Shown piece by piece: positions 2,100 to 19,979 of a stretch of 45,293 bases of DNA (within the stretch, counting starts at the first letter, position 1; every line of letters begins with the position of its first letter). The notes under the pieces were generated by a model. The model had not been told where the DNA came from. It was given only the letters and a program-made list of their open reading frames with translations, and did no database searches. Source of the stretch: a virus; the IMG/VR virus record IMGVR_UViG_3300046727_000107, positions 1 to 45,293 of that record; one strand, 5' to 3'. Position numbers and translations under genes: made by a program.

Positions 2100-4092
2100 C
2101 CTTGCCGCCAAGGAGCAGGCGCGCCAGCAGGCCATCCTGAAGTTCGGCAACGATCGCAAGCTGGCGCACGCCGTCCTGTTCGCCCACCGCCATCCCGACG
2201 CCACCCCACCGTTCCACCACGACATGATGGACGTGTGGCATGGTCCTTCGCGGCGCGTGCTGATCATGGCGCTGCGCGAGGGCGCGAAGTCGACGGTCGG
2301 CGAGGAGGAGATGATTCTCGACGCCGTGTTCCAGTCGTTCCACAACGCGGTGATCATCGGCGAGACCGCGGAACGTGCGGCCGATCGCCTGCGGGCCGTG
2401 AAGTACGAGTTGGAGTACAACGAGTTTTTGATAGAGCTGTTCGGCGGGATGAAGGGCACGACGTGGAACGAGGACAAGATCATCCTCCAGAACAACGTGT
2501 GCATACAGGCCAAGGGACGCGACCAGTCGTTCCGCGGCATCAAGCATCTCGACTGGCGCCCCGACTTCCTCTGGGTGGACGACTACGAGGACAAGGAGAG
2601 CGTCAAGACACCCGAGAGCCGCGACTTCTGGACCAAGAACTTCATGACCGTGATCGTGCCGGCCTGCGACAGGCGCGCAAAGATCCGCATCACCGGAACG
2701 CCACTGGATGACGACTGCATGCTCTACCGCCTGCGCAAGGAGCGCACGCAGGACGGTGGGCTGCGCTGGACCACACGCGAGTATCCGATCGAGTACATCA
2801 GCCCGGAGGGCGAGCGTACGCCGATATGGCCGGCGCGGTACCCGCTGGAGTACATCGACGAAGTCAAGCAGTCCTACGCCGAGCAAGGCTTGGCCGAGGA
2901 CTACCAGCGAGAGTACATGGTGCAGGCCAGCAATCCGCAGCTGCGCAAGTTCAAGGCCGAGCAGATGCACGTCGTGCCGCACATCCGGACATGGCAGCCG
3001 ACGCTCGCGGTCTACGACCCCGCGCGCACGACGAACCAGAAGACGTCGTCGATGACCGGACACGTCGTCGCCAGTTGGATCGGCAACAAGCTGGTGGTGT
3101 GGGAGGCGGGCGGGCGGTTCATGCTGCCCGATGCGCTGATCGCCGATCTGTTCCGGGTGGAGGAGACCTACAGCCCGGTCGAGATCGGCGTGGAGGAGAC
3201 CGGGCTGAACGAGTGGATCATGCAGCCGCTGCGTCATGAGCAGTTGCGCCGGCGCATCATGCTGCCGCTGCGCGCCATCAACGCGCCGAAAGGCAAGATC
3301 GACTTCATCGGATCGCTCCAGCCGTTCTTCGCCGCGGGCGAGGTGGAGTTTGCCGTCGAGCTGCCCGAGCTGAAGAAGCAGCTGCTGTCGTTCCCGACCG
3401 GGCGGCTCGACGTTCCCAACGCGCTTGCCTACCTCCTGAAGATGCGGCCGGGCCTGCCGGTGCTCGACGGGTTCGGCGCGATGAACGTGGTGGAGGATCT
3501 GCCGCGCGTCTCCAGCCGGCCGTACTACCTGGCGCTCAACGCCGACAAGGGCGTGGTGTCGGCGATCCTGTGCCAGCACGTCGACGGTGCACTGTGGGTG
3601 CTGGCCGACTGGCTGCGCGAGGGCGACCCCGGCGAGGTGCTCGGCGGCATCGTCACCGACGTGTCCATGGAGATCGGCAGGACACCCAGGCCGGTGGCCG
3701 GGCTCCAGCACTTCAAGCCGTTCGATACCATCGGCCTGATGGCGGCGGCGCGGCGAGTGCCGATCGACGTCAACAGCGGTGGCGAGCTGCTGCACGGCCG
3801 CGAGGAGCTGCGCAAGTACATGCGCGCCATGCGGCACGGACAGCCGGCGCTGCTGATCGCCAGCCGGGCGTCGTGGACGCTGCGCGCGCTCTCGGGTGGC
3901 TATGCGCGCAAGGTGGTGAAGGGCGGCGTCCTGAACGGCGAGCCGGTGGAGAATGTCTACAAGGTGCTGATCGAGGGCCTGGAGACATTTGCCGGGCTCT
4001 TGCCCTCGACCGCCGAGCGGGATATGGATGACAGTCCCCATTATGCGGTCAACGACCGGGGCGTCCGCTACATGACGGCATTGCCACGCTGA
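2092..4092 (+). CDS. Terminase large subunit (TerL), 666 aa
   Basis: This is the ATP-driven DNA packaging motor and headful or end-cutting nuclease. An atypical Walker A motif LREGAKST spans 61-68, Walker B FLWVDDYE spans 159-166 and the coupling motif TGTP spans 201-204. The nuclease half begins around residue 305 with the acidic LAVYDPAR segment and continues with VEETGLNEW. The last 190 or so residues (from about 475, RPYYLALNADKG) form an extra domain that most TerL proteins of 450-550 residues lack; its layout of strands resembles the preceding RNase-H-type domain. The start is the ATG at 2092, overlapping the previous gene. The stop overlaps the portal start (TGATG). Confidence 0.9.
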   Translation: MDDLAAKEQARQQAILKFGNDRKLAHAVLFAHRHPDATPPFHHDMMDVWHGPSRRVLIMALREGAKSTVGEEEMILDAVFQSFHNAVIIGETAERAADRLRAVKYELEYNEFLIELFGGMKGTTWNEDKIILQNNVCIQAKGRDQSFRGIKHLDWRPDFLWVDDYEDKESVKTPESRDFWTKNFMTVIVPACDRRAKIRITGTPLDDDCMLYRLRKERTQDGGLRWTTREYPIEYISPEGERTPIWPARYPLEYIDEVKQSYAEQGLAEDYQREYMVQASNPQLRKFKAEQMHVVPHIRTWQPTLAVYDPARTTNQKTSSMTGHVVASWIGNKLVVWEAGGRFMLPDALIADLFRVEETYSPVEIGVEETGLNEWIMQPLRHEQLRRRIMLPLRAINAPKGKIDFIGSLQPFFAAGEVEFAVELPELKKQLLSFPTGRLDVPNALAYLLKMRPGLPVLDGFGAMNVVEDLPRVSSRPYYLALNADKGVVSAILCQHVDGALWVLADWLREGDPGEVLGGIVTDVSMEIGRTPRPVAGLQHFKPFDTIGLMAAARRVPIDVNSGGELLHGREELRKYMRAMRHGQPALLIASRASWTLRALSGGYARKVVKGGVLNGEPVENVYKVLIEGLETFAGLLPSTAERDMDDSPHYAVNDRGVRYMTALPR

Positions 4093-6362
4093 TGGCCCGA
4101 CGATCGCGCAAATCCGCCAAGCTTGCTCGCGACCCGCGCAGCGACGCGGAGACGCCCGAGCCGGATGCCGACGACGCCCTGTCCGCCATCGGCGATAATA
4201 GCGAGGGCGTCGACACTGACAAGGAGAACGCCAAGGAGGAAGACCGCGACGCGCAGCTCTGCGGCGTCGATGAGATCCACGACGCATTGGTCGAGTTGTA
4301 CGATGATATCGAGGGCGGGTTCAACAACCAGGCCGACCGCTCCGACGACATCATGGACTACTGGGACTTGTACAATTGCAAGATGGGCGGGCGGCAGGCG
4401 TACGCCGGCAACAGCAAGATTTTCGTGCCGATCATCACCAACGCCGTCAACGCGCGCAAGACGCGCTTCACCAACCAGATTTTCCCGCAGTCGGGGCGCA
4501 ACGTCGAGTGCACTACCAGCGAGGACAAACCGAACGAGTTGATCGCGCTGCTGGAGCACTATATCCGCCGCGCCAAGCTGCGCACGCAGGTGATGCCCGC
4601 GCTGATGAAGAACGGCGACATTGAAGGGCAGTACAACATTTGCGTCTCGTGGGGCTCGACCAAGCGCACCGTGACGCAGCGTGTCACCAAGCCGCTTCAG
4701 CCGGCCGGCCAGGAGCCGATCCCCGGCACCGACGACGACGACATCGAGGAGGAGACCGTCGAGCGCGCGTGCCCGATCGTCGAGGTGCTCGGCGACAGCG
4801 ACGTGCTGGTGCTGCCGGAGACCGCGAACAGCATCGAGGATGCGATCTACGAGCAGGGTGGCTCGGTGACGGTGATCCGGCGCTGGAGCAAGTCGAAGAT
4901 CAAGAAGATGATCGCTGACGAGGAGATCGAGGAGGAAGCTGGCGAGAAACTGCTCGGCATGTTCACCGACAACGACGGGCCGATGCGCGAGGACAAGCCG
5001 AAGAAGATGATCGATGCCGCCGGCATCCAGACGCAGAATGGCACCAAGTACGCGCTGATCTACGAGACCTACACGCTGCTCACCTACAACGACGAGCGCC
5101 GGCTCTACAAGGCGTTCTTCGGCGCTCCGCAACTGATCGTCGGGTGCAAGCGCAACCCGTACTGGTCCGACCGCTGTCCGATCCTGTCGGTGCCGGTGGA
5201 GAAGGTGCAGGGCTCGTTCAAGGGCATCTCGAAGCTCAAGCCGTGCGCCGACATGCAGTACGCCGCCAACGATGCGGTGAACGAGGGCATGGACTCGGCG
5301 GCCTACTCCATGCTGCCGATCATCATGACCGATCCGCTGAAGAACCCGCGCATCGGCACGATGGTGCTCAATCTCGCGGCGATCTGGGAGACCAACCCGA
5401 ACGACACGCAGTTCGCGCAGTTTCCAGAATTGTGGAAGTCGGCGTTCGAGGTAGTCGGCGCGTGCGAGCAGAAAATCAACCAGACGCTCAGCGTGTCGCC
5501 CGCTGTGATGCCGCAGTCGACGTCGACCGCGCAGCGGCGCAACCAGGCCGAGCTGGCGCAGGAGGCACAGGTCGACATCCTCTCGACCGCCGACGCCGTC
5601 ACGGTGGTGGAGGAGGGCGTGCTGACGCCGCTGCTTCAGTGGTTCGTCGAGCTGGATCACCAGTTCCGCGACAAGCCGATGACTGTGCGCGAGTACGGCG
5701 AGATGGGCGTGATCCTCAATATGCAGGAGATCAAGCCGGTTCAGATGAACAAGCGGTTCGAGTTCCGTTGGTTCGGCGTCGAGAGCGCGCGCAACGCGCA
5801 GCAGGTGCAGCAGCAGATCGCCACCATGAACGTGCTGCGTGGCATCCCGCCGGAGCAGTATGAAGGCTACAAGCTCAACATGCGCCCGATCATGGCGCAG
5901 ATGGTCGACAACGCGTTCGGCTCGCGCATGGCACCGGAGATTTTCCAGAACATGCGCAGCCAGCTCAGCAACGAGCCGCAGCTTGAGAATACGATGCTGC
6001 TCGACGGGTTCGATCTGCCGGTGCATCCGCTCGACGAAGACGCGCAGCATCTCCAGGCACACGCGCAGATCATGCAGAACGGAGATCCGACTGGCATGAT
6101 TCGCGTGCACATGGCCAAGCACATCGCGCAGCTCTCGCAGAAAACGCAGCAGCAGGCGATGATGCAGCAGCAACAGCAGATGCAGCAGGGCATGCCGGGC
6201 GTGCCCGGCGGCGCGGGTCCAGGCGGCCCGCAGCCGGCGCCAGGGGTCGCCGGGTCGCCGCGCATCGGCGCGCAGCCGCAGATGCCAACCGGTGGCCAGG
6301 GTCCGCCCGGCATGATTCACCACGACCAGCTCAACGGCGCGGGGATTGCTCCGCGGCGTTGA
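4092..6362 (+). CDS. Portal protein, 756 aa
   Basis: This dodecameric head-tail connector is the docking site of terminase. Assignment rests on position directly after TerL (overlapping TGATG), a length like that of P22 or N4 portals (725-763), and the acidic N-terminus before a helical crown region. Recognisable segments are YAGNSKIFVPIITNAVNARK near residue 105 and a central block with MQYAANDAVNEGMDSAAY. The C-terminus from about residue 680 is a run of Gln and Met followed by Gly/Pro-rich sequence, as in many portals with a flexible barrel end. I did not confirm a particular portal family. Confidence 0.85.
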   Translation: MARRSRKSAKLARDPRSDAETPEPDADDALSAIGDNSEGVDTDKENAKEEDRDAQLCGVDEIHDALVELYDDIEGGFNNQADRSDDIMDYWDLYNCKMGGRQAYAGNSKIFVPIITNAVNARKTRFTNQIFPQSGRNVECTTSEDKPNELIALLEHYIRRAKLRTQVMPALMKNGDIEGQYNICVSWGSTKRTVTQRVTKPLQPAGQEPIPGTDDDDIEEETVERACPIVEVLGDSDVLVLPETANSIEDAIYEQGGSVTVIRRWSKSKIKKMIADEEIEEEAGEKLLGMFTDNDGPMREDKPKKMIDAAGIQTQNGTKYALIYETYTLLTYNDERRLYKAFFGAPQLIVGCKRNPYWSDRCPILSVPVEKVQGSFKGISKLKPCADMQYAANDAVNEGMDSAAYSMLPIIMTDPLKNPRIGTMVLNLAAIWETNPNDTQFAQFPELWKSAFEVVGACEQKINQTLSVSPAVMPQSTSTAQRRNQAELAQEAQVDILSTADAVTVVEEGVLTPLLQWFVELDHQFRDKPMTVREYGEMGVILNMQEIKPVQMNKRFEFRWFGVESARNAQQVQQQIATMNVLRGIPPEQYEGYKLNMRPIMAQMVDNAFGSRMAPEIFQNMRSQLSNEPQLENTMLLDGFDLPVHPLDEDAQHLQAHAQIMQNGDPTGMIRVHMAKHIAQLSQKTQQQAMMQQQQQMQQGMPGVPGGAGPGGPQPAPGVAGSPRIGAQPQMPTGGQGPPGMIHHDQLNGAGIAPRR

Positions 6363-6398
6363 TCTGTGGTAGCAACAATCGTTCGTCGGAGGTTCGCT

Positions 6399-6734
6399 AT
6401 GCGCAAGGTTATTTCGTCGATCGCGGCGCTTTTGATGTTTTCTTCCGTCGCGCTAGCGCAGCCGCTGTTCACCGGCGGGCGCACGTCGAAGCTCAACATC
6501 ACGGCGGCGACAGTCGTGAAGGTCGGCAGTGGGCGGCTCGCGACATTCACTGTGACGACGGCCGGCGCTGCGGGGACAATCAGCGACACGACGACAACCG
6601 GCGCCGTTGCGGCGGCCAATCTGATCGCAGTGACCCCGGCCACCGTTGGTGTCTACAAGATTGACTGGCCAGTGCTCAACGGCATCGTTGTGACACCGGG
6701 TGTGGGGCAAATCGTGTCGGTGAGCTACGAATGA
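6399..6734 (+). CDS. Small exported protein with Sec signal peptide, 111 aa
   Basis: The N-terminus has a Lys/Arg start, a hydrophobic core IAALLMF and a cleavage site VALA-QP after residue 20. The mature part is about 90 residues, Thr/Val/Ala-rich and probably all-beta. The ATG at 6399 is chosen because CGGAGG lies 6 bases upstream; the open frame starts earlier but without a ribosome site. It overlaps the next gene by ATGA, and that product is also exported. Family unknown. The placement right after the portal is unusual: exported proteins are not expected inside the head operon. The mature sequence resembles small beta-sandwich appendage proteins, but this is weak. Confidence 0.75.
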   Translation: MRKVISSIAALLMFSSVALAQPLFTGGRTSKLNITAATVVKVGSGRLATFTVTTAGAAGTISDTTTTGAVAAANLIAVTPATVGVYKIDWPVLNGIVVTPGVGQIVSVSYE

Positions 6735-8689
6735 AAAAGCTCCTCCTCGCCGCCTTCCTCACCCTCGCGTCTCCCGCGCTCGCGCAGAATGTTTTCTTTC
6801 CGGCCAATCCCGGCGACATGATCGTCAAGGGGACGGTCGGCGCGTGGACTGGCGTGCCCGGCGGCACCGCCGGCTGTGTGCTGATGTCGCAAGGTCCGAC
6901 CGCGGCGCCGACGTGGAGCTGCGCGCTGCCGCTCAACTTCAGTCTGCCGCCGATCGCGACCAACCGGTTTCTTGGCAACGCCAGCGGCGTGCAGGCGATC
7001 CCGAGCGCGTTGACCATCAACCAGGTTCTCGACACGGTCGGCTACGACACGTTGCGCACGCCGACCAACGGGTCGATGCTGGTCAAGGAGCCCGCAACCG
7101 GGACGTGGCAGGCGCTCGTGCCATCACAGAATGTCGGCTGGGTGCTGTCGTCGGCGGGTTCGTTGCAGGTGCCGGTGTGGTCGTTTCAAGCAGGATCGGC
7201 ATCACCGGGTGCCGCTGGAACGTGTCTCGTCAGCAACGGCGTCGCTCCAGCTGCGCCGACCTATCAGAACTGCCTGACCGGGCTCGGCCTGACGATGACG
7301 AACGGGCAACTGCTCGTCGGCCAGACAGGATCAGTGCCGCTCGCGAAAACGATGAATGGCGACGGCACGCTCGACTTGAACGCAGCGTTCACGCTGGCGA
7401 CGGTCAACGCGAACGTCGGATCGTTTGGCTCGGCGACTGCGGTGCCGGTATTCACGGTCGATGCCAAGGGGCGCATCACAGCGGTGACGACGGCGGCGCC
7501 GACCGTAACCAGCGTCAATGGCGTGGCGTATCCGTCATCGGGCACGACCGGGGATCTGTTGCAAGCGACCGCGGCGGCGACGATGGGACGGCTTGCGGCT
7601 GTGGCGACGGGTAACGTCTTGCGTTCCGGCGGCGTCGGTACAGTGTCAGCATGGGGAAAAGTCAATCAGACGACTGACATTACGGGTGTAACTCCTGTCG
7701 CGAACGGTGGCACGAATGCATCGTCGGCCAGCGGCACGGCGGTCGACAACATCAGCGGGTTCGCGTCGACCGGCATCATGTCGCGCACCGGCGCAGGCGC
7801 ATACTCGTTCTCGACCATCAGCGCGCTGATCGACGTTATCGGCTCAACGCGCGGCTCGGTGCTGTACCGCGGCGCCGCGGGCTGGGCGGCACTGACGCCC
7901 GGCGCATCGGGCACTGTGCTGTCGTCGAACGGTGCGGGTGCCGATCCATCGTACATCGCAGCCGGCGGCACCGGTACGGTGACGAGTGTTGTTTGCGGCA
8001 CAGGACTTGACGGCGGAACGATTACGACAACCGGAACGTGTTCTCTGTCTGCGGCACGGCGCACGCTGCCGACGACGCAACCTTTTACGTCTGGTACCAG
8101 CGCTACCTACACCACGCCGGCCAATGCACTTTGGCTTGAAGTGTGGATCGTTGGCGCGGGCGGCGGCGGCGGCGGCGCTGGCACCGGAGGACAAACTGGC
8201 GGGGGCACTGGTGGCACAACCACGTTTAATTCTGTAACCGCCATAGGAGGCTCCGGCGGAAGCGCCGCTCCATCTGCGGTAAATAATAATCCTGGTCCCG
8301 GAGGGAACGGCGGGACGGGTGGGACCGGTACGGCATCGCGCCGTTCTGGTGGCGGGGGCAGTCCTGGTGGACAGGGAATCGCTGCTGCTGTCAACGGCAC
8401 CGGTGGCCCCGGTGGATCGTCTGGATTTGGTGGTGGCGGTACGATGGCCACGACGGGCGGTACCTTCGGTGGCGGCGGTGGTGGTTCTGGAACAAGCTCT
8501 GGCGGCGTTTCTGGCGGAGGCGGGGGCGGGGGCGGTGAAACGGCTTACTTTATTATCAACAGCCCTTCCGCCACCTATACCTACACTGTTGGCGCCGGTG
8601 GTACAGCTGGTGCTGCGGGTACGAGCGGTGGAGCCGGTGCGGTAGGAGGCGGTGGCTACGTTTTTGTTATTGAGCACTATGGGTCCTAA
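6731..8689 (+). CDS. Fibre-like exported protein with glycine-rich tip, 652 aa
   Basis: A clear Sec signal peptide opens the protein (KK, then LLLAAFLTLASPALA, cleavage before QN at 19-20). The shaft contains motifs typical of phage tail fibres, including NANVGSFGSATAVPVFTVDA followed by KGRITAV (about 229-255) and a TPVANGGTN segment. From about residue 475 (WLEVWIVGAG) the chain becomes a glycine-rich domain with GGGG, GNGGTGGTG and YTVGAGG blocks, ending YVFVIEHYG. This resembles the glycine-rich receptor-binding tips of T-even gp38 adhesins. A fibre or adhesin for host recognition is likely; why it has a cleavable signal peptide is unclear. It starts inside the ATGA overlap with the preceding gene. 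Confidence 0.75.
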   Translation: MKKLLLAAFLTLASPALAQNVFFPANPGDMIVKGTVGAWTGVPGGTAGCVLMSQGPTAAPTWSCALPLNFSLPPIATNRFLGNASGVQAIPSALTINQVLDTVGYDTLRTPTNGSMLVKEPATGTWQALVPSQNVGWVLSSAGSLQVPVWSFQAGSASPGAAGTCLVSNGVAPAAPTYQNCLTGLGLTMTNGQLLVGQTGSVPLAKTMNGDGTLDLNAAFTLATVNANVGSFGSATAVPVFTVDAKGRITAVTTAAPTVTSVNGVAYPSSGTTGDLLQATAAATMGRLAAVATGNVLRSGGVGTVSAWGKVNQTTDITGVTPVANGGTNASSASGTAVDNISGFASTGIMSRTGAGAYSFSTISALIDVIGSTRGSVLYRGAAGWAALTPGASGTVLSSNGAGADPSYIAAGGTGTVTSVVCGTGLDGGTITTTGTCSLSAARRTLPTTQPFTSGTSATYTTPANALWLEVWIVGAGGGGGGAGTGGQTGGGTGGTTTFNSVTAIGGSGGSAAPSAVNNNPGPGGNGGTGGTGTASRRSGGGGSPGGQGIAAAVNGTGGPGGSSGFGGGGTMATTGGTFGGGGGGSGTSSGGVSGGGGGGGGETAYFIINSPSATYTYTVGAGGTAGAAGTSGGAGAVGGGGYVFVIEHYGS

Positions 8690-8716
8690 TACCTCACATT
8701 ATCTAGGATAGAAGGT

Positions 8717-10165
8717 ATGACGCTTTCTCGCCGCAGGTTCCTACTTGGATCGTCCGCACTTGCCGCTGCATCGGAACTTCCAAGCGCAGCACTCGCGCAA
8801 AGCTCCTACAATCCATGGCAGTGGCGTACGTATAATTATTACGGCAACGATATGCCGGTTGCTGATCTCCCATGGGATTACGTGACACACATTCTGGACG
8901 TATTTGTCGGCATCAACATCAACGGCGATGTTGCGGTCGACATGCTGGCGCCGATGCAATCGCACATCGTTCCACTAATCACGGCAGCGCACGCCCATGG
9001 CGTCAAGGTACTGCTCTGCGTCGGAGCGTTGAGCGGCGGAACGCCGGCCACTCAGTCTGACGTCAATCTTTATAATTCGATCGTTAACAACGGCGGGTGG
9101 GTCGCTGCCGCGAAGATCATGGCGTTCGTCAATCAGTACGGTTACGACGGCGTGGCACTCGACCTGGAGCCGGCCGCTGGAAATCTAACATCGACGTTCG
9201 CCGTATGGACGAGCTTGATGAAGAACCTGCGCCAACAGCTCGTCAATCCGAAAATTCTGACGTGCAACGCCGTTTCCGATCCAGGGCATGCGCAGATGTG
9301 GGGCGGATCGGAGGCGCTGTCCTATCTCGACCGCCTGCACCTCATGACGTTCAATCTTTACGCCTACTCACTCGGGCGAACGACGCACAACGCTTCGCTG
9401 TACGGCGGAACGACTTTTGCCGATTATGCGTCGTTTTCGGTTGACGCTAACGTGCAAGACTATCTGCGGCGCGGCGTGCCGGCGAACCGCATCAACATCG
9501 TACTTCCGTTCTACGGCAAAGAGCTTTTCGGATATGCTGGTCCGAACCTCGGGCTCGGTGCGCACCAGCCAGGCACAGCGCCTGATGCTGAATTGGACTA
9601 CAACGTCATCGTCAACAATCACCTGCCCGGTGCGACGGTTCATGTCGACGATGTGGCGCGTGTGCCGTGGGCTTCCGTTCCGGATAACTCGCGCTGGTAT
9701 TCCTACGACGACGCGATGTCGATCCGCGCAAAGGTGGACTACGTGCGTGCGCGTGGACTGGGCGGTGTCGACGCGCATCATATCGGTGGTCAAAATTTCC
9801 CGAACGCCATCATCAAGAATCCGCTGTGGCAAGCGGTCGAGGATGGCTTTGCAGCGCCACCTCCTGCGCAGGAAGCGGCGGCTATCGTTGAAGTCGATGT
9901 CGGAAGCTTGTTTCGGCCGAATGGATGGGGGCAGGTATTCTCAGGTCGCATCTTTGGCGATGGCATTCCTTCAACGCTGTGGTGCTACATCTTTTCCAAA
10001 TCCAATCCTGAGCAGCTGCTGAGCTATATGCCCAACGTTTCGACGGTCGGCGGTGTCTGGTCAGTCGTGAACAACTCTGTCGTCGGTCCAGGCACGTATT
10101 GGTTCTACGTGTTTGGTCCGTCTAACAAGATGTTGGCCAAACTTCCGTTTGTCGTTTTTCCGTAG
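8717..10165 (+). CDS. GH18-like glycosidase with Tat signal peptide, 482 aa
   Basis: The N-terminus carries a twin-arginine signal: SRRRFLLG at 4-11, a hydrophobic Ala-rich stretch and cleavage near AALA-QS (27-28). The body (about 35-385) reads as a GH18 TIM barrel with strand VKVLLCVGALSGG (97-109), the catalytic strand YDGVALDLE (143-151) and a later MTFNLYAY block. The family consensus DGxDxDxE is DGVALDLE here: the first inner Asp is Ala147, while Asp149 and the acid Glu151 remain. A beta-rich C-terminal domain (from about 395) follows. GH18 enzymes cut beta-1,4-linked N-acetylglucosamine; peptidoglycan, capsule or another surface glycan is the likely target. Next gene is holin-like, so a lysis role is possible. 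Export in folded form by Tat is rare for phage enzymes. Confidence 0.75.
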   Translation: MTLSRRRFLLGSSALAAASELPSAALAQSSYNPWQWRTYNYYGNDMPVADLPWDYVTHILDVFVGININGDVAVDMLAPMQSHIVPLITAAHAHGVKVLLCVGALSGGTPATQSDVNLYNSIVNNGGWVAAAKIMAFVNQYGYDGVALDLEPAAGNLTSTFAVWTSLMKNLRQQLVNPKILTCNAVSDPGHAQMWGGSEALSYLDRLHLMTFNLYAYSLGRTTHNASLYGGTTFADYASFSVDANVQDYLRRGVPANRINIVLPFYGKELFGYAGPNLGLGAHQPGTAPDAELDYNVIVNNHLPGATVHVDDVARVPWASVPDNSRWYSYDDAMSIRAKVDYVRARGLGGVDAHHIGGQNFPNAIIKNPLWQAVEDGFAAPPPAQEAAAIVEVDVGSLFRPNGWGQVFSGRIFGDGIPSTLWCYIFSKSNPEQLLSYMPNVSTVGGVWSVVNNSVVGPGTYWFYVFGPSNKMLAKLPFVVFP

Positions 10166-10178
10166 GAAGGACTACACT

Positions 10179-10643
10179 GTGAACCTCAAAGGTGTGCTCG
10201 CATTCTTTCTTGTGTGTACGTCGGCCGGAATGGTGATCCTCTGGATGCTGCATCCGCCGACCGTTGACGCCGGGACCGCCGCACTCCTCGCCAGCTTCGT
10301 GACCATGTTCATCAAGATGTCGGCCGATGCGATCGGCTACCAGTACAATTCAAGCGCGGGCTCCGACAAGAAGGATGATGCGCAGGCCAAGGTGGCGAGC
10401 ACATTGGCTGCGGCTGTTCCCGTCGCCGCGGCTGCGATCGTTACTCCGGTAACATCGTGGTGGACGCTGCTGACCGACGCCGAGCGGTTTGCGATCGAGG
10501 CGGCGGCACCGAACAATGCGCGCCTGACTGCGTTCATTACGGCAGCGAAGGTCGGAAAAGCGACCACCGACGATCTCAACTACCTCGTGCAACGCAGCTT
10601 GCTCACGCAACCGAGGGCTGATACGATTGCTGCATCTGTTTGA
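10179..10643 (+). CDS. Membrane protein, holin candidate, 154 aa
   Basis: A GTG start at 10179 is used because TAGGAAGG lies 6 bases upstream. Two predicted membrane helices sit close together (GVLAFFLVCTSAGMVILWML at 4-23 and TAALLASFVTMFIKM at about 32-46). A charged and then Ala-rich soluble tail follows. Its place directly after the GH18-like enzyme and before several one-helix proteins suggests a lysis cassette, with this protein making the membrane lesion. The soluble C-terminal 100 residues are longer than in classical class II holins, so an unrelated membrane role is possible. Confidence 0.6.
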   Translation: MNLKGVLAFFLVCTSAGMVILWMLHPPTVDAGTAALLASFVTMFIKMSADAIGYQYNSSAGSDKKDDAQAKVASTLAAAVPVAAAAIVTPVTSWWTLLTDAERFAIEAAAPNNARLTAFITAAKVGKATTDDLNYLVQRSLLTQPRADTIAASV

Positions 10644-10654
10644 AGGAATAGCTC

Positions 10655-10738
10655 ATGCCGGCGCTGATGCTGTTTGCGATTTCGCTCCTGCTCGTTATCG
10701 GGCCGATTTATTTCGGCGGATGGTGGATGTGCCGTTAG
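10655..10738 (+). CDS. Micro-protein, one membrane helix, 27 aa
   Basis: The ORF was found by reading the gap after the holin-like gene. GAAGGA lies 7 bases before the ATG. The peptide is almost entirely a hydrophobic helix (MLFAISLLLVIGPIYFGGWW) ending MCR. Such peptides accompany holins in several phages, but no family is recognised. Confidence 0.55.
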   Translation: MPALMLFAISLLLVIGPIYFGGWWMCR

Positions 10739-10756
10739 GTGTAGGCGGGGAAGCCG

Positions 10757-10915
10757 ATGCCACAAATCTGGGTGCTCGTCCTGCTCTGCAACTGCGCGCA
10801 GCCGACGCAGACCTTGTTTCCGACGCACAGGAAGTGCGACGAAGCAGGCCGGCGCGCGCTCTACGCGCTTGATATCAACGTGCCGAGCTATCGGTGTACA
10901 GCAGTGGTGCGATGA
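10757..10915 (+). CDS. Small Cys-containing protein, 52 aa
   Basis: It begins MPQIWVLVLLCNCAQ, a short hydrophobic N-terminus followed by a soluble part with cysteines at 11, 13, 27 and 47 and a closing YRCTAVV. This layout occurs in many small phage proteins near lysis genes, but I know no function. GGGGAAG precedes the ATG. The LLCNC stretch resembles a lipobox, yet the preceding hydrophobic segment is very short for a lipoprotein signal. Confidence 0.5.
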   Translation: MPQIWVLVLLCNCAQPTQTLFPTHRKCDEAGRRALYALDINVPSYRCTAVVR

Positions 10916-10944
10916 CCGATGCCGTTCAAGGAAGGACCAGCCAA

Positions 10945-11445
10945 ATGATGCGCTTCGTGCTTTCGATCTGCCTCGTGTGTTTCGCGTTCACCGAAGCGTC
11001 GGCGCAAAATCCGCGCCCGCGAATTCCGCTCCCCATCGATCCGCTCGGGCTGAACGAACGATCGGGTGTCGGCGCTGGCTCGCCGCTCGGCAATCTGCTC
11101 GGTGCACTCGACGCCAAGCTGCTGCCGGATCTGAAGTACGCGCTGAAGCTGGCGGAAGCGTCGGGCAGCAAGGTGACGGCGCCGTGCTATTCGGCATGGA
11201 TCGCCATTATCGAGACCCGGCAGTCCGCGGTGAAAGAAGGCGACCAGGATGTGCCGCTGCCCGATCCGCACCTGGTGACCGACTTCGAGAAACTGGTCGA
11301 GCTGCGCAACTCGCTGCAACCGGATTCGCCGTTCATGATCTCGTGCTCGCCGGTCGCCAGCATGGTGAAAAAGGACATCGTCGGATTTATCGGCACGGTG
11401 ATTTCGGGCGGCGCGGGGCTCGCGACGCTCGTACCGGGACTGTAA
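10945..11445 (+). CDS. Exported protein with Sec signal peptide, 166 aa
   Basis: The start is the first of two adjacent ATGs, preceded by GGAAGGACC. Signal peptide: MMRF, core VLSICLVCFAF, cleavage at ASA-QN near residue 21. The mature N-terminus is Pro-rich (PRPRIPLPIDPLG). The middle is helical, with two cysteines (about 68 and 134) that could form a disulphide once in the periplasm. A second hydrophobic stretch near the C-terminus (IVGFIGTVISGGAGLATLV) may anchor it in the inner membrane. Family not recognised. A periplasmic partner in lysis or superinfection control would fit the place. Confidence 0.65.
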   Translation: MMRFVLSICLVCFAFTEASAQNPRPRIPLPIDPLGLNERSGVGAGSPLGNLLGALDAKLLPDLKYALKLAEASGSKVTAPCYSAWIAIIETRQSAVKEGDQDVPLPDPHLVTDFEKLVELRNSLQPDSPFMISCSPVASMVKKDIVGFIGTVISGGAGLATLVPGL

Positions 11446-11490
11446 AAGCGAATTCACGGTCCCGCGCGGGGGCTAACGTGCGAGGCAGTC

Positions 11491-11802
11491 ATGGACATCA
11501 GGCCGGGTGATGCGCTACAAGCGTTCGCTTATCTCGTAGGTGCTGCCGGCTTCATCGCGGCGATGCGTGTGTCGATCGCACGGCTGGCGGTTCGGCAGGA
11601 TAATCTGGAACGTGTTGTCGCGACCGTCGTTCAAAATCTGAGTGATAGTGTAAAGCAGATCACCGATGCAGTGACGAGGATGGCCCGTTATGACGAACGC
11701 ATCCGGTATTTACGACGCGATGTTGAAGAACTCCGACGCAAGCAAGGTTATATTGCCCGTCCCGAACCCCTCCAGAATGAAGACGCTGCGGAGCAGGACT
11801 GA
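11491..11802 (+). CDS. Membrane-anchored coiled-coil protein, 103 aa
   Basis: One N-terminal hydrophobic helix (FAYLVGAAGFIAAM, about 12-25) is followed by a long charged heptad-like helix to residue 85 (VRQDNLERVVATVVQNLSDS and on). A short acidic tail ends it. Single helix plus coiled coil is the plan of inner-membrane spanins (Rz-like), and the gene lies in the putative lysis region, so an i-spanin is a reasonable guess. No matching o-spanin lipoprotein is seen next to it. Its end overlaps the next gene by 26 bases. Confidence 0.6.
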   Translation: MDIRPGDALQAFAYLVGAAGFIAAMRVSIARLAVRQDNLERVVATVVQNLSDSVKQITDAVTRMARYDERIRYLRRDVEELRRKQGYIARPEPLQNEDAAEQD

Positions 11803-12241
11803 GCTGGTGACCGGCGCACTCATATGCGCCGTGCTGATGTTCGCCGGCTGGAACTGGATTGTGCGCGCATCAGTGCTGAGTTTTGGACCCCCGGATGCGG
11901 TCTATCTGAGCACCGCTAAAGCGGGACCGGGCGACACCATCCAGGTGCATTTTCGCGACGTGACGTGGTACCGACTATGCAAATCGGAGACCATCATGTC
12001 GTTTCAGCCGAAGAACGGGCTGCGGTTCGACTTCCCGGTCCACCAGACGTCGACGCCGATGACGACCGGCAAGATCCCGCCGAAGTCGCGCGCGCTGACG
12101 CTACCGGTGGCGCTCGACGCAAGCCAGTATGGTGCGGGCATCGTCAGCGGCCATGTGCGGTCGTCATGCTGGCCGGTTGAAGGATTGCCCATCGTGACGC
12201 CGCTGCCCGACATGGCGCTGGAGATCGTGCGGCGGGGATGA
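11777..12241 (+). CDS. One-helix membrane protein with periplasmic domain, 154 aa
   Basis: The ATG at 11777 is preferred to an upstream in-frame ATG because it limits the overlap with the preceding gene, although no strong ribosome site is visible. A membrane helix covers about residues 11-31 (TGALICAVLMFAGWNWIVRA). A beta-rich domain follows with two cysteines (near 70 and 134), plausible for disulphide formation outside the cytoplasm. Family unknown. The next gene starts in its stop codon (ATGA). Confidence 0.6.
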   Translation: MKTLRSRTELVTGALICAVLMFAGWNWIVRASVLSFGPPDAVYLSTAKAGPGDTIQVHFRDVTWYRLCKSETIMSFQPKNGLRFDFPVHQTSTPMTTGKIPPKSRALTLPVALDASQYGAGIVSGHVRSSCWPVEGLPIVTPLPDMALEIVRRG

Positions 12242-12411
12242 CGCTTCGTGGACGCCAGATCACATGGGGCGAATTGCTCACCGTGGCGGTAGCATTCGCC
12301 GCTGTCGCGCTGTGGTCTTGGGGTGCCGGGTTCTACATGGGGCGGGCGTTTGAACAACTTGACATAATGTTGCGTGCGGGCGTACGGTGCCGCAACATTG
12401 TTGTCCCTTGA
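12238..12411 (+). CDS. Micro-protein, one membrane helix, 57 aa
   Basis: ATGA overlap with the previous stop fixes the start. A hydrophobic helix spans about 12-33 (LLTVAVAFAAVALWSWGAGF). The last third (LDIMLRAGVRCRNIVV) overlaps the candidate promoter at 12359-12388, so the end of the gene may be constrained by that signal. It closes the exported and membrane-protein block that separates the portal gene from the scaffold and capsid genes. Confidence 0.55.
   Translation: MTLRGRQITWGELLTVAVAFAAVALWSWGAGFYMGRAFEQLDIMLRAGVRCRNIVVP
12359..12388 (+). promoter_or_regulatory. Candidate promoter for scaffold and capsid genes
   Basis: A perfect -35 TTGACA (12359-12364) is followed after 18 bases by TACGGT (12383-12388), a poor -10. 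It sits 33 bases before the scaffold start. A separate promoter would allow the capsid genes to be expressed at a higher level than the block before them. Confidence 0.35.
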
Positions 12412-12420
12412 GGTTTGTTC

Positions 12421-13221
12421 ATGGCCCGCCGTCCGATCGCCGCCGCTCTCGCCGATACCGAAGATCAGAACATCGACCAGGGTGATCAGCGCGCCATTGT
12501 CAACGGTGAAGTCGAGGACGACGTCGAGCAGCTTGAAGACGACGTCGAAGAACTTGAAGACGATCTCGCGGCGGACGACGCTGATCCCGACGAACCTCTC
12601 GAACCCCGACAGCGCGAGCGCCGCCCGGCGCGCGTGCGCGAGCCCGATGAAGACCGGCTGGCCGCAATCGAGCGACGCGCGGAAGCCGCCGAGCGACGTG
12701 CGGAAGCCGCTGAACGCACCGCGCGTGAAGCGCAGGAGCGCTATCAGCAGCGCCAGGAGCCGGTCGAGACGCCGGAGCAGGAAGCCGCCAAGCTCGCGTT
12801 GATGACGCCCTACGAGCAGCTTCAGTATTCGCAGCGCAAGATCGACAAGGCGCTCGCCAATCATGACCAGCGCGTGCAGCGCGGTGTGCTCCAGGCGTCC
12901 AACGCCGCCGACAAGTCCTCGTTCGAGGCGTTCGTCTCCGACAAGCCGCAGCTCAAGAAGATCGCCGCCGACGTCGAGAAGAAGCACGCCGAGCTGATGG
13001 CGCAGGGTGCCACGCCGTCGCGCATGGACGTCGCCAAGTACATGCTCGGCGAGCTTGCGCTCAAGGCGTCGCAGACGCCGGAGGCGCGCAAGGCCAACAA
13101 CGACCGTCGCGACCGGGTACAGCGCCAACAGGCGCGGCCGGGAACGCCGGCCAGTGACGTCCGCGGTGAACGGCGCCGCGGGAATACGCTTGAAGATCGG
13201 CTTGCGAACGTTCAAATCTGA
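12421..13221 (+). CDS. Scaffolding protein candidate, 266 aa
   Basis: It lies directly before the major capsid gene, is highly charged and mostly helical. The features are an acidic coil with EDDVEQLEDDVEELEDD (about 37-53), an Arg/Glu helix with tandem RRAEAAE units (about 87-105) and a basic C-terminal region with RRDRVQRQQARPG. Position, size and composition match phage internal scaffolds, which shape the procapsid and leave or are cleaved. Family identity is not established. TGAGG 7 bases upstream supports the ATG at 12421 over one six bases earlier. Confidence 0.75.
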   Translation: MARRPIAAALADTEDQNIDQGDQRAIVNGEVEDDVEQLEDDVEELEDDLAADDADPDEPLEPRQRERRPARVREPDEDRLAAIERRAEAAERRAEAAERTAREAQERYQQRQEPVETPEQEAAKLALMTPYEQLQYSQRKIDKALANHDQRVQRGVLQASNAADKSSFEAFVSDKPQLKKIAADVEKKHAELMAQGATPSRMDVAKYMLGELALKASQTPEARKANNDRRDRVQRQQARPGTPASDVRGERRRGNTLEDRLANVQI

Positions 13222-13250
13222 ACGGGCGCGCAACACAGGAGACCTGAGTT

Positions 13251-14594: not shown

Positions 14595-14632
14595 CGGGCT
14601 CCTCTGGCGGGGAGATAGCGGCGAAGCGTGAA

Positions 14633-14660
14633 CTCCGGCGAGGCCCTAACCTCGCCGGAG
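14633..14660 (+). terminator. Perfect 11-bp hairpin after the capsid gene
   Basis: CTCCGGCGAGG (14633-14643) and CCTCGCCGGAG (14650-14660) flank a six-base CCCTAA loop. No T run follows, so it is not a standard rho-independent terminator. It may dampen readthrough or protect the abundant capsid mRNA 3' end. Confidence 0.6.
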
Positions 14661-14680
14661 ACGCGCAAGAGGAGACGGTG

Positions 14681-14968
14681 ATGGCACTCGCGACCTTCGG
14701 ATCGAACGCGCAGACGACGCTGTCAGCGCTGCTGTGGAAGTCGTCGTCGCCGATCGCCGACATCGCGTCGATCTGCAACGGCATCAAGAACGACCTGAAC
14801 ACGCCAGATGGATGCAAAGGCGCGTTCGCCAACAACGGCATTCTCTATGTGCCGAATCGGGGCGTCTTGAAGTTGCGTCCTGGTGATTGGGTCGCGCTCA
14901 CTTCAACGGGGTTTCCGATCCTGCTCAGTGCCGCGGCGGTCGCGGCCGACTTCACGCACAATCCATAA
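14681..14968 (+). CDS. Hypothetical virion-region protein, 95 aa
   Basis: AGAGGAG 6 bases upstream supports the ATG at 14681. The first half is Ser/Ala-rich and helical, the second (NGILYVPNRGVLKLRPGDWV, about 51-70) is beta-like. The GVLKLRPGDW segment is common in small head decoration or head-completion proteins, but that is only a resemblance. Located between capsid and adaptor genes, it is likely a head component. I do not recognise the family. Confidence 0.65.
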   Translation: MALATFGSNAQTTLSALLWKSSSPIADIASICNGIKNDLNTPDGCKGAFANNGILYVPNRGVLKLRPGDWVALTSTGFPILLSAAAVAADFTHNP

Positions 14969-14979
14969 CAGGAGTTTTC

Positions 14980-15402
14980 ATGGCCAAAACGCCGTCCAAG
15001 GGTCACGCTTCGATCACGGTCATCGACCCCACGACATTGACCGACGAAGATCGAGCGTCCTTGCGCGCGCGTGCGGCCAAGGCCGTCGATCTCGAAGTTA
15101 AGCAGGCAACCATCGACGCGATGTACGAGCAGTTCCTCAAGGAGGAGCGCCAGCAGCGCAATCCGGTCGACGAGATCAAGTACATCCAGCTCGATCTCGC
15201 CGCACACTCCGACCGCATCATGCTCGACGGCACGGTCTATTTCCACGGTACGACCTATGCGGTGCCGCGCCGCGTCTACGAGGTGCTGCGCGAGACGGTG
15301 CAGAACGGCTGGCGCCACGAGCGCGAGTCGGAGGGCAAGCTCAACCGCAACGCCTACCGCAAGCCGATTGCGCCGGTACTGAGTGGCCGGGGTGCTGCGT
15401 AA
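14980..15402 (+). CDS. Hypothetical virion-region protein, 140 aa
   Basis: The ATG at 14980 has CAGGAG 6 bases upstream. The first half is a charged helix (KAVDLEVKQATIDAMYEQFL about 31-50); the second has YIQLDLAAHSDRIMLDGTVY and a FHGTTYAVPRRVYEVLRE block. The FHG-x-TY-x-V stretch is often seen in phage structural proteins of unknown function. The stop overlaps the next start (TAATG), indicating coupled translation. Confidence 0.65.
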   Translation: MAKTPSKGHASITVIDPTTLTDEDRASLRARAAKAVDLEVKQATIDAMYEQFLKEERQQRNPVDEIKYIQLDLAAHSDRIMLDGTVYFHGTTYAVPRRVYEVLRETVQNGWRHERESEGKLNRNAYRKPIAPVLSGRGAA

Positions 15403-15828: not shown

Positions 15829-16551
15829 GTGGCTCTCACGTACGCCCAGATCATCAATCTGTCCTGCCTGGTAGCGAAATGCCCTGGCTACGGCACGCTG
15901 GCCGGGCAACTGCTGACCAACATCCTTGACGATCTTTGCCGCAACTACGACTTCGACGTGGCCAAGGACACGTTCAGTTTCGCGTTCAATACGAGCATTG
16001 CCGGTGGTGCGGGACCGTTCCCACTGCCCGCCGACTTCCTGCGCTCCGACCAGAACGACGTGTTCTTCACGATCAGCGGCGTGCCCTATGTGATGATCGC
16101 GATCGGCAACGCCGCCTATGATGCGACGGTGAAGACGGCGGGCTTCAACTCCTACCCGATCTACTACACCACTAATATGGATGTGGCTCCTCCGACCATG
16201 GAGGTGTGGCCGCCCGCGAGCGGATCATACCCGGTCACGGTGCGCTATCGCCGGCTGATGCCGAGCGTGGCGACGCCCGAGAGCGACACGACGATCCCAT
16301 GGTTCCCCAACCAGACATATTTGCGCCAGCAGCTCACCGGTGAATTGTGCCAGCTCACGGGCGACACGCGCGCGGCTGAGATGCTCGGCGACGATGAACG
16401 CGCGACGCCGAACGGCGCAGGCGTTATCTTGCGCAAATATCTCAAGCTGAAGGACAACGCGGCGAACACGCAAAAGTCGGTGCAGCGCGACCGGCGGCGA
16501 TTCGGCAATAATTTTTCGGACCTGCGTAACACCAAAACCGTGGGGTGGTGA
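15829..16551 (+). CDS. Head-tail adaptor, T7 gp11-like, 240 aa
   Basis: A GTG start follows the previous stop directly. The N-terminal helices (IINLSCLVAKCPGYGTLAGQ, DDLCRNYDFDVAKDTF) and the middle beta region with PFPLPADFLRSDQNDVFF (63-80) and MEVWPPASGSYPVTVRYRRL (about 124-143) match the layout of tail tubular protein A and related adaptors. These sit between portal and tail nozzle. It is slightly longer than T7 gp11 (196). The gene order adaptor then nozzle agrees. Stop and next start overlap as TGATG. Confidence 0.75.
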   Translation: MALTYAQIINLSCLVAKCPGYGTLAGQLLTNILDDLCRNYDFDVAKDTFSFAFNTSIAGGAGPFPLPADFLRSDQNDVFFTISGVPYVMIAIGNAAYDATVKTAGFNSYPIYYTTNMDVAPPTMEVWPPASGSYPVTVRYRRLMPSVATPESDTTIPWFPNQTYLRQQLTGELCQLTGDTRAAEMLGDDERATPNGAGVILRKYLKLKDNAANTQKSVQRDRRRFGNNFSDLRNTKTVGW

Positions 16552-18182
16552 TGGCGCTCCGCAACTCCTCACCGATGAAGTGGATGCCGCGGGGCGTGTC
16601 TGACACGCTCGACGCGACGAATTCATTCACCGGCGCGATGCGGACGTTGCAGAACCTGATCCGCGATCCGACGACGTTGGGGATCTGGGTCTGCCGGCCG
16701 GCGGCGATTCAGCAGACGGCGTTCGGTGGCTTCCCGGCGACCGGATTCGTGTCGTGGTTCGAGGTGATCGGCAATCAGATCTACGGATTGGTTGCCGGAA
16801 CGACCTTTGCTGGACGCGATTTGCCGTTCTGTTATGATTTTGCCACCGGCAATTTCATCGCAGTCACTGGCGCGACGGCGGCGAATACGCCGCTGAGTCC
16901 GGCTGCATCAGGTGCATGGCACCCGCCGATCGGCGCGCTGGTCGGCGTCAAGCTGGTGGTGACGCATCCGGGTTTCCAGGGCGGCGCAACGCCGTTCTTC
17001 GGCTGGTTCGACGTCACCAATCCGGCGGCGCCGACGTGGAACGCTGGCAATACGGCGACCAATGCGTTGCCGACTGTGCCGCGCTCGGTGTTCCAGTTCG
17101 GCAATCGTGCCTATTTCGCCAGCGGTCGTTACCTCGTTTTCACTGACGTGCTTGACCCGTTGACCGTGACGAACGCCACGCAGGCGCTAACGCTCGGCGA
17201 TAACCAGCCGATCACGGCACTTGGTGGCCTCCCAGCCGGGACGCTCACCGGCGGCATCGTGCAGACGCTCATCGTGTTCAAGAGCGAGAGCAACCCGATG
17301 CAGATCTACCAGGTCACCGGGGATGCGACCAACGTTCCGAGCCCGCTCAGTATCAACAATTTCCCGGTCGCGACTGGCACGCTGTCGCCGCTGTCGATCT
17401 GCTCGACGCCGAAAGGCATGGCATTCCTCGCGCCTGACGGGTTGCGCATCATCGATTTTGCCATCCAGGTCAGTGACCCGCTCAACATCGACGGTTCAGG
17501 CATCGCTGTTCCGTTCCTCTATGCCGTCGAGCCGAGCCGCGTGTGCGCGGCGTGCAACGGCAACATCATGCGGATCTCGACGCAGAACGGCTATGCGGTT
17601 GGATCGCCGTTCGAGGAATACTGGTTCGATTTTAAGTACAGTCAATGGAGTGGTCCACACACGTTCCCGGCTTCGCTGATCAAGCCCTATAGTGACCAGT
17701 TCGTGATGGCGCCGCAGAGCGTGTTGCAGAAACTGTTCACCAGCGACGTGCGGCAGAAGTCGACCAGCACCTATGTCGAGAACGGCGCGCAACTGTCCTT
17801 CATCTGGCAGACGCCGATGCTGCCGAACAAAGATACGATGTCCGAATACAACATGATCGAGACCACGGTCGACATCGCCTACCCGCCGACGCAGCTCGCG
17901 TTCGTGGCTTCATGCGGTGACGAAAACAATACGCTGTTCGACAGCGTCAGTCTTTTGCCCAGTGGCAACCCGACGCTGTGGGGTTCGTTCAACTGGGGAC
18001 AGGCACCGTGGCTCGGCGCCGCGAACGCGCTGACGGCGCGGCAGTTGCCGTGGCATCAGCCGATCACGTTCCAGCGTATCTATGTAGGACTGAGCGGCGA
18101 TTGCAGCGGCGCGCTGAAGATCGGCTCGTTGCGGATGCGTTACGAAGAACTTGGCTATCTCCTCCAAATACCGGCGGCCTGA
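16551..18182 (+). CDS. Tail nozzle/hub-like structural protein, 543 aa
   Basis: A large beta-rich protein directly after the adaptor, in the position of T7 gp12 (tail tubular protein B) or P22 gp10. Repeated strand-rich blocks suggest a propeller-like fold, for example WFEVIGNQIYGLVAG, FQFGNRAYFASGRYLVFTD and GMAFLAPDGLRIIDF. The C-terminal part has IKIGSLRMRYEELGY-like strands. It is shorter than T7 gp12 (794). The conserved N-terminal NSSPMKWMPRGVSD stretch is typical of podovirus tail proteins at this locus. Function follows mainly from position. Confidence 0.65.
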   Translation: MALRNSSPMKWMPRGVSDTLDATNSFTGAMRTLQNLIRDPTTLGIWVCRPAAIQQTAFGGFPATGFVSWFEVIGNQIYGLVAGTTFAGRDLPFCYDFATGNFIAVTGATAANTPLSPAASGAWHPPIGALVGVKLVVTHPGFQGGATPFFGWFDVTNPAAPTWNAGNTATNALPTVPRSVFQFGNRAYFASGRYLVFTDVLDPLTVTNATQALTLGDNQPITALGGLPAGTLTGGIVQTLIVFKSESNPMQIYQVTGDATNVPSPLSINNFPVATGTLSPLSICSTPKGMAFLAPDGLRIIDFAIQVSDPLNIDGSGIAVPFLYAVEPSRVCAACNGNIMRISTQNGYAVGSPFEEYWFDFKYSQWSGPHTFPASLIKPYSDQFVMAPQSVLQKLFTSDVRQKSTSTYVENGAQLSFIWQTPMLPNKDTMSEYNMIETTVDIAYPPTQLAFVASCGDENNTLFDSVSLLPSGNPTLWGSFNWGQAPWLGAANALTARQLPWHQPITFQRIYVGLSGDCSGALKIGSLRMRYEELGYLLQIPAA

Positions 18183-18183
18183 T

Positions 18184-19293
18184 ATGTACAAATGGAAGTG
18201 GGTTGCACTGCTGATTGCCATCATCGCTGCGGGGCCGGTCGGCTTCGCGGTTGGTCAAATCGTCCCTGCCCTGCCGTTCCAGTTGCAGAACAACACCGTC
18301 GCCGACGCCACGCAGGTGATGGCGAACTTCAACCAGCTCCTCAATAACGTCAACACCAACGCAGCGAAGAACGGCAGTAACAGCGACATCACGGCGTTGC
18401 TCGGGCTGACGACGCCGCTTGCACCGGGAGTCGGCGGCACAACGACGTTCACCGGCGGAACGTCGGGCGGTAGCGCGAATGCACAGACGGTCACGCCGGT
18501 GGTGCCGAGCACGTTCTCGCTGGTAGTCGGATCACGCGTCGTGTTCGTTGCCGGGTTTGCCAATACGGCGGCGATGACGCTGAATGTGGCGGCGAGCGGT
18601 GCCAAGGCGGTGTTCCGCAAGACACAGCTTGGTCCGGTAACGACGGCCGGCGGTGAACTAAACGCGGGAGACGTCGTCGAAGTCATCTACGACGGTACGC
18701 AGTTCCAGCTAATGGGTCCACCGACAGTCGTCGGCGAGATCAAGGACTACACCAGCACGGTAGCACCGGCGGGCCATCTCATTGCCGATGGGAGCTGCGT
18801 TTCGCAGACGACGTACGCGGCCCTGTTTTCCGTATACAGTGTGCAGTGGGGCTCTTGTGGCGGCGGCTTGTTCGCGCTCCCCGATACGCGCGGCCGTGTC
18901 ATGGCAGGACAGGATCTCAACGCTGGCCGTTTGAACGCTGGTGGCAGCAATTGCGGCACCGGCGGCACCGCAGCGATGACCGCGGCCTGCGGTGCGCAGA
19001 ACGAAGTGATTAACCAGAATAACCTCCCCGCCGTGACATGGCCAAATACACTGGGAGTTACGCGCGGCGGTGCCGTTGCTCTCTCGGCGGCAGCCGGCGG
19101 CGTGCTCAACAACCAAGGCGTCGGCGGTGGCGCCAACGTGACGGGCGGTGGCGGTGCTTATAACATTGGTGCCATTACGGTCGTCGACACGCAGACGTTT
19201 GGGGTATCGGGTGGCGTTACGTCGGGCGGCTCCGGCTCCGCGCTGATTACCGTGCAGCCGACGCTCGTCGTCAACAAGATCATCAAGTATTGA
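18184..19293 (+). CDS. Exported tail-collar fibre protein, 369 aa
   Basis: The ATG at 18184 is 2 bases after the preceding stop. The N-terminus has a signal or anchor sequence (WKW, then VALLIAIIAAGPVGFAVG to about 24). The middle has a fibre-like beta region. A phage tail-collar domain starts near residue 179: VGEIKDYTSTVAPAGHLIAD, continuing through YAALFSVYS to FALPDTRGRVMAGQD. This domain is known from T4 gp12-like and other distal fibre proteins. The C-terminus is Gly/Val-rich. A host-binding role is likely; the leader peptide is unexpected for a virion fibre. Confidence 0.75.
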   Translation: MYKWKWVALLIAIIAAGPVGFAVGQIVPALPFQLQNNTVADATQVMANFNQLLNNVNTNAAKNGSNSDITALLGLTTPLAPGVGGTTTFTGGTSGGSANAQTVTPVVPSTFSLVVGSRVVFVAGFANTAAMTLNVAASGAKAVFRKTQLGPVTTAGGELNAGDVVEVIYDGTQFQLMGPPTVVGEIKDYTSTVAPAGHLIADGSCVSQTTYAALFSVYSVQWGSCGGGLFALPDTRGRVMAGQDLNAGRLNAGGSNCGTGGTAAMTAACGAQNEVINQNNLPAVTWPNTLGVTRGGAVALSAAAGGVLNNQGVGGGANVTGGGGAYNIGAITVVDTQTFGVSGGVTSGGSGSALITVQPTLVVNKIIKY

Positions 19294-19355: not shown

Positions 19356-19979
19356 ATGAATTTCCGAAAACTGGCGGCCGCGGCCGTTCTCGCGCTCTCC
19401 ATCGGCGGTATCGCAGTTGCGGCCAATCTTCCGCTCTATACCGGCCCAGCCGGGACCAACCCCACGGCCGACTGGCCTCCGGGGCTCGGCACCATCAACC
19501 AGGTCGTGCAGGCGGTCAACGGCGGCACCGGCGGCCTGATCAACGCGCAGACGGCTTCGGTCGGCACCGGCGCGGACACGACCGAGGACGTGCTCCAGAC
19601 CTATACGCTCCCGGCGAATACGCTCAGCGTCGCCGGCCAGTCGCTGCGCATCACCTGCCCCTACTCGACCGGCGCGACCGCGAACAATAAGACGGTCAAG
19701 CTTTACTTCGGAGGTTCGTCGGTCTCCACCGGCGTGATCGCCGCCAACGCGCAGCAGGGCTATCTCCAGCTCATCGTGATGCGCACGGCCGCAGCGACGC
19801 AGGGCGTGTTCGCGAGCGGCGTCGGCGGCACCGGCTCGGTCTCGCCGATCGCCGTGACCTACACCGCCGGCACCGATGCGCTGACCGCCGGTGTCGTGAT
19901 CAAGTGTACCGGCACCAACGGCACTGCGGCGGCGAACGACGTTATCGCGCGCGGCATGATCACCGAGCTGATCAAGTAA
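19356..19979 (+). CDS. Exported beta-rich protein with Sec signal peptide, 207 aa
   Basis: GGAGGCTGGA precedes the ATG at 19356; an ATG 12 bases earlier in the same frame is less likely. Signal: FRKLAAAAVLALSIGGIAVA, cleavage before AN (about 22-23). The mature part starts with LPLYTGPAG, reminiscent of QPLFTGG after the signal of the protein at 6399-6734, and then reads as a jelly-roll-like beta sandwich with repeated ITCPYSTG and KLYFGG strands. Such folds occur in tail tip or decoration proteins. It is the fifth exported product in the structural operon. Function unknown. Confidence 0.7.
   Translation: MNFRKLAAAAVLALSIGGIAVAANLPLYTGPAGTNPTADWPPGLGTINQVVQAVNGGTGGLINAQTASVGTGADTTEDVLQTYTLPANTLSVAGQSLRITCPYSTGATANNKTVKLYFGGSSVSTGVIAANAQQGYLQLIVMRTAAATQGVFASGVGGTGSVSPIAVTYTAGTDALTAGVVIKCTGTNGTAAANDVIARGMITELIK

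Follow-up and report, generated by a model that had tools for sequence, protein, structure and literature searches.

Predicted export of tail-fibre proteins and a variable cargo slot between portal and scaffold genes in a clade of phages

In the IMG/VR virus record IMGVR_UViG_3300046727_000107 (the whole record, 45,293 bases, is the window analysed here), a block of genes for products with export signals or membrane helices lies between the portal and scaffold genes. The usual view is that tail fibres of double-stranded DNA phages are synthesised and put together in the cytoplasm; why, then, should fibre-like proteins of a phage carry export signals, and where would they act? The preliminary description of this DNA treated the block as one thing, but we find a slot whose content varies and in which fibres stand alongside probable lysis genes. 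In the window it holds two fibre-like proteins with Sec signals, a GH18 enzyme with a twin-arginine (Tat) signal, a holin-like gene, a small protein with a Sec signal and short membrane open reading frames (ORFs), and across relatives this cargo slot between portal and scaffold varies, taking in more exported fibres besides an envelope enzyme and lysis genes. Two later genes outside the block (starting at 18184 and 19356; Table 1) encode the exported fibres that stand out most clearly. We give about an even chance to the reading that most of the exported products are tail fibres, which would be exported, cleaved, oxidised in the periplasm and docked on virions at lysis.

Export signals and cysteine parity across the clade

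Signal peptides were called with a predictor written for this analysis, not an established program, which was tried on 50 kb of Escherichia coli K-12 with location labels taken from annotation and recall. It called 5/5 soluble or outer-membrane exported proteins, one of two lipoproteins and 0/23 cytosolic proteins; because 3 of 11 inner-membrane proteins were miscalled, a strict rule excludes any protein that has an additional hydrophobic segment. Genes with a truncated start or fewer than 50 amino acids (aa) did not enter the signal counts. With this predictor, a signal peptide with a cleavage site was found in the Sec proteins of the window, one of which (E165) fails the strict rule owing to a hydrophobic C-terminal stretch. 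The portal, scaffold and capsid genes carry no signal and lie outside the interval, just as the preliminary description had placed them.

The clade was defined through relatives of the portal. A search with its alignment kept 80 of 152 confirmed relatives, giving 84 portal loci with earlier loci included and 71 once near-copies at 95% portal identity were removed; interval counts use the 48 dereplicated loci that have both a portal and a capsid gene. In these 48 loci the interval measures 0.86-8.5 kb, and a gene with a strict signal occurs in 0/10 intervals shorter than 1.5 kb and in 30/38 longer ones. Strict signals were found in 61/190 interval genes as compared with 36/515 genes in the remainder of these loci (Fisher 8e-16), the latter divided into 17/172 upstream plus-strand, 18/241 downstream plus-strand and 1/102 minus-strand genes. 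Shuffling the N-termini of the interval genes gave a mean of 5.3 strict signals and a maximum of 12 in 50 rounds. Since both comparisons lie far lower, the enrichment is not due to chance, and together with the gene readings it bears out the earlier observation that the interval products carry a Sec or Tat signal, a membrane helix or a hydrophobic N-terminus. Of 97 strict signal cases in the 48 loci, 41 have an AxA-type site followed by glutamine at the mature start.

According to PMC7678975, even cysteine numbers tend to mark bacterial exported proteins, which provides a check on export in which the signal is not scored. The mature parts of complete proteins of at least 80 aa with a strict signal have an even number in 73 cases, an odd number in 8 and none in 9, as against 118, 181 and 126 for cytosolic plus-strand proteins and 32, 29 and 16 for minus-strand proteins. 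Relatedness inflates these raw counts; by family, 41.25 are even and 7.75 odd, with 14 families without cysteine (singletons: 28 versus 6, with 10 at zero). In the window the mature proteins have six cysteines in B652, four in the collar-domain fibre described below, two each in I207 and E165, and none in A111. Export is well supported at the level of sequence, and action outside the cytoplasm, as had been proposed for the products of the block, is supported by the signal peptides, this parity and a signal-linked cysteine pair in the collar family; the proposal as a whole is borne out in part.

What the slot carries differs among relatives. Exported cargo includes tail-fibre families by PHROGs, as well as a fibre adaptor type that is signal-less in L047, L055, L065 and L069. 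Phage-encoded outer-membrane beta-barrel proteins (OMP_b-brl) occur in the slot of L077 (13769-14443) and L026 (7196-7903), an O-antigen-ligase-like membrane protein, below the Pfam cut-off, stands directly behind the portal in L006 (12122-13129), and a lectin-like domain is found in the slot of L053. In a different virus record of 66 kb, L001, one block (9269-17002) combines exported fibres with a Tat-type protein, homologues of F103 and G154 and a peptidoglycan-binding protein. The interval of L054, L073 and L037 is poor in signal genes or lacks them; in these loci exported genes are found ahead of the portal gene.

A fibre family with and without signals

Two further exported proteins, at 18184-19293 and 19356-19979, had been noted beyond the block, and both proved real. 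The former is a tail fibre with a collar domain above the curated cut-off (PF07484, 43.2 bits versus 24), predicted to be Sec-exported. It resembles known PF07484 phage tail fibres in its collar domain, its place behind tail genes, its conserved N-terminus and its variable C-terminus, and differs in having a Sec signal and, as do most signal-bearing kin, a cysteine pair that is absent from signal-less relatives. The family allows a second check that does not depend on scoring the signal. The best 80 of at least 92 confirmed collar loci were kept, and the 65 with the N-terminal domain were used (15 dropped); the family counts that follow refer to these. A signal is borne by 44 and lacking in 21. 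L177 was assigned to the signal-less class by hand, its predicted hydrophobic core sitting inside the fibre domain, and among fibres of the kin six that looked signal-less (L015, L070, L081, L019, L037, L066) were start-site errors and are left out of all signal-less counts.

The N-terminal cysteine pair is present in 34/44 collars with a signal and in 0/21 without (Fisher 7e-10), and in 30/39 versus 0/15 after removal of near-copies (1.5e-7). Parity follows the same division: the 37 complete signal-bearing collars comprise 34 even, 1 odd and 2 without cysteine, the 20 signal-less ones 8, 9 and 3. Both kinds occupy the same slot, with a nozzle homologue upstream in 43/44 and 19/21, respectively, and alignments between them begin at the predicted cleavage site (residue 2 of L119 with residue 20 of L126; residue 4 of L146 with residue 23 of L133). 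Among 19 collars, identity is 0.55 across the first 60 mature residues and drops to 0.18 at the C-terminus, as in a fibre that is anchored and varies at its tip. In 22 kin genomes that include the stretch downstream of the nozzle gene (window included, near-duplicate pieces merged), the collar behind the nozzle gene is signal-bearing in 17 and signal-less in 3, and 2 have no collar; the signal-less collars do not form one group on the portal tree, which requires two changes.

A structure model of the collar fibre (mean predicted local distance difference test score, pLDDT, 69.6) gave its best matches to tail fibres of Pseudomonas phage Pa193, cyanophage A-1(L) and T4; searched by sequence, the protein had no match among solved structures, and the signal-less collar L007 had none in the phage collection. 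The second exported protein, I207, has homologues that carry a signal in 26/26 cases and an even, non-zero cysteine number in 24/24 complete ones. The model of I207 is a beta-sandwich; its weak matches are of lectin-like and carbohydrate-binding type and include a cyanophage short-fibre domain. In the phage collection I207 had no match.

Proposed docking at lysis and the alternatives

Under the favoured reading, the fibres would be made with cleavable Sec signals and the GH18 enzyme with a Tat signal, and all would cross the inner membrane. The signal would be lost and disulfide bonds formed in the periplasm, and lysis would mix virions with periplasmic fibres, whose N-terminal domain, exposed by cleavage, would dock on the tail nozzle. 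Of these steps, export and oxidation have the best support. Sequence comparison supports the export signals, the linkage of signal and cysteines, the shared slot and the shared N-terminal domain. Cleavage, trimer formation and docking after export we infer, the docking because of this shared slot and domain and because no signal-less fibre gene was found in this genome by gene readings and family matches of the window. Addition of fibres or tailspikes to phage particles is possible in vitro. Of the three fates suggested in the preliminary description (coating the host surface, trapping receptors, or assembling on virions after release), the last would fit best on these same grounds. It is tempting to go further, at a little under an even chance, and propose that a large clade of tailed phages completes its virions from outside, with receptor-binding fibres that mature in the periplasm and join cytoplasm-built particles only at lysis; the maturation compartment would then have switched in evolution, since related fibres of the same slot occur with and without a signal.

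A number of points weigh against this. The support comes from sequence and models; the collar model, at its pLDDT of 69.6, has only two structure matches at E <=0.001, and a tree-controlled test of signal against cysteine pair gave one supported pair and had no power. The GH18 enzyme has three cysteines after its signal, an odd number, and A111 has none. L065 and L069 have a signal-less fibre besides a signal-bearing collar, so there the virion may have another fibre besides the exported one, and the signal-bearing fibre ranks second, behind a signal-less fibre or spike, in two cultured phages (BcepC6B and PBR31). Docking of fibres diluted at lysis would also be inefficient.

The main rival is that exported fibres are not virion parts, and we regard it as unlikely though clearly in contention. 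Such fibres would bind the host receptor, either in the periplasm or at the surface, or else be shed in quantity into the medium at lysis, blocking superinfection or the loss of progeny on debris. In its favour, the beta-barrels, the lectin-like domain and the sub-cut-off O-antigen-ligase-like protein in the slot of kin are envelope-acting cargo, and BcepC6B and PBR31 have a separate signal-less fibre or spike. A free blocker, however, has no obvious need of a conserved N-terminal domain common to signal-less fibres of the same slot, and the window would be left without any fibre found. A much less probable idea is that the hydrophobic N-termini are uncleaved anchors that hold fibres in the membrane or virion, with nothing exported. 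The predictor cannot prove cleavage and miscalled 3 of 11 E. coli membrane proteins, but cysteine parity, the signal-linked pair, the AxA-type sites with glutamine at +1 and mature starts that are conserved while signals drift all speak for export. A111 is an example of such drift, with a mature part conserved in kin and a diverged signal: its L003 homologue aligns only from residue 21 (63%). Homologues of A111 in L028 and L051 lack a signal.

Scarcely more probable is the view of the block as an ordinary lysis cassette with accessory genes, in which the fibres are not unusual. Holin-like, possibly spanin-like and GH18 genes lie in the block, and L001 has its peptidoglycan-binding protein in a similar one; several membrane products resemble those of an ordinary lysis module, which makes the block non-uniform, and this may be the right reading of 10179-12411. 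It leaves the signals on the collar, I207 and B652 families across kin unexplained and is contradicted for the fibre genes (B652 homologues in L001, L005, L068 and L085 likewise bear signals). Compared with a phage lysis cassette of holin, endolysin and spanin, the block has a weakly holin-like and a possibly spanin-like gene and differs in that no endolysin was recognised in it, nor a conventional one in the window; its Tat-signal GH18 enzyme lies near the position at which L003 has a gene that is lysozyme-like by eye only and has no Pfam match.

Among cultured phages, BcepC6B gp19 and orf035 of Xanthomonas phage PBR31 come closest to fibres exported as in the favoured reading: both match the tail-fibre family phrog_11393, have signal peptides and lie beside holin genes, although the match of the exported fibre of L057 to gp19 is limited to the C-terminal part of the L057 protein. 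The nearest precedent found is bacterial, namely the MAT fibres of Bdellovibrio (PMC10769870). These proteins resemble phage fibres, are synthesised with a signal peptide and act outside the cytoplasm, but are encoded by bacterial genes and serve predation. In the open-access literature, no phage report of exported or signal-bearing tail fibres was recognised.

If fibres are exported in this way, whole clades would assemble virions across two compartments, with fibres able to carry disulfides; virion preparations should show mature N-termini, often beginning with glutamine, and signal-bearing phage proteins should not be discarded as non-structural. BcepC6B and PBR31 offer a direct test.

Gene content of the window

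The window has terminase, portal, scaffold, capsid and tail genes and a minus-strand replication half.

Table 1. Features of the block, its borders and the later exported fibres.
Feature	Coordinates	Strand	Basis and remarks
Portal	4092..6362	+	Weak phrog_332 and phrog_2833 matches; left border of block
A111, 111 aa, predicted Sec-exported	6399..6734	+	Signal MRKVISSIAALLMFSSVALA before Q, AxA site
B652, 652 aa, predicted Sec-exported, fibre-like, glycine-rich C-terminus	6731..8689	+	Signal MKKLLLAAFLTLASPALA before Q
GH18 enzyme, 482 aa, twin-arginine signal	8717..10165	+	PF00704, E 4e-37; MTLSRRRFLLGSSALAAA
Holin-like membrane protein	10179..10643	+	Two hydrophobic segments; Phage_holin_3_7 (E 0.018) and phrog_217 holin (E 0.05), both weak
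27-aa hydrophobic ORF, reality uncertain	10655..10738	+	Read from sequence
52-aa ORF, reality uncertain	10757..10915	+	ORF only
E165, 165 aa, predicted Sec-exported	10948..11445	+	Signal MRFVLSICLVCFAFTEASA before Q
F103, 103 aa, possibly spanin-like	11491..11802	+	Hydrophobic N-terminus, then charged helix
G154, 154 aa, membrane protein	11777..12241	+	One helix
H57, 57 aa, membrane protein	12238..12411	+	One helix
Scaffold	12421..13221	+	Named by position before capsid gene; homologues in L003 and L006; right border of block
Tail nozzle p545	16551..18182	+	Name inferred from position; probable docking partner of collar fibre
Collar-domain tail fibre, 369 aa, predicted Sec-exported	18184..19293	+	Directly behind nozzle gene; PF07484, E 3.9e-11; phrog_9116 tail protein, E 2.2e-12
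I207, 207 aa, predicted Sec-exported beta-sandwich protein	19356..19979	+	Homologues and model

The GH18 match exceeds the Pfam cut-off (129 bits versus 29.6). The twin-arginine motif of this protein, SRRRFLL, precedes a hydrophobic stretch, with a Pfam TAT_signal score below the cut-off (14.3 bits versus 22.7); neither phages nor viral contigs yielded a relative of the enzyme. Starts resembling Tat signals are also present in L006, L039, L009 and L001. The holin-like protein fails its Pfam cut-off (15.5 bits versus 25.4), E165 has no Pfam or PHROG match, and the best Rz-like match of F103 is weak (phrog_739, E 0.051); in L001 the homologues of F103 and G154 adjoin each other. Rfam and transfer RNA searches of the window gave no matches.

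The portal has no isolate relatives in the phage collection or in genome contigs. Labels from metagenome-assembled genomes (Hyphomicrobiales, Reyranella and others) are weak host hints; of those six loci, four are signal-bearing and two are not. The nozzle gene was matched in 19/20 fetched records; it lies directly upstream of collar homologues. In G020, the record of L084, it was matched three separate times between 19267 and 23983, suggesting a split or repeated nozzle gene.

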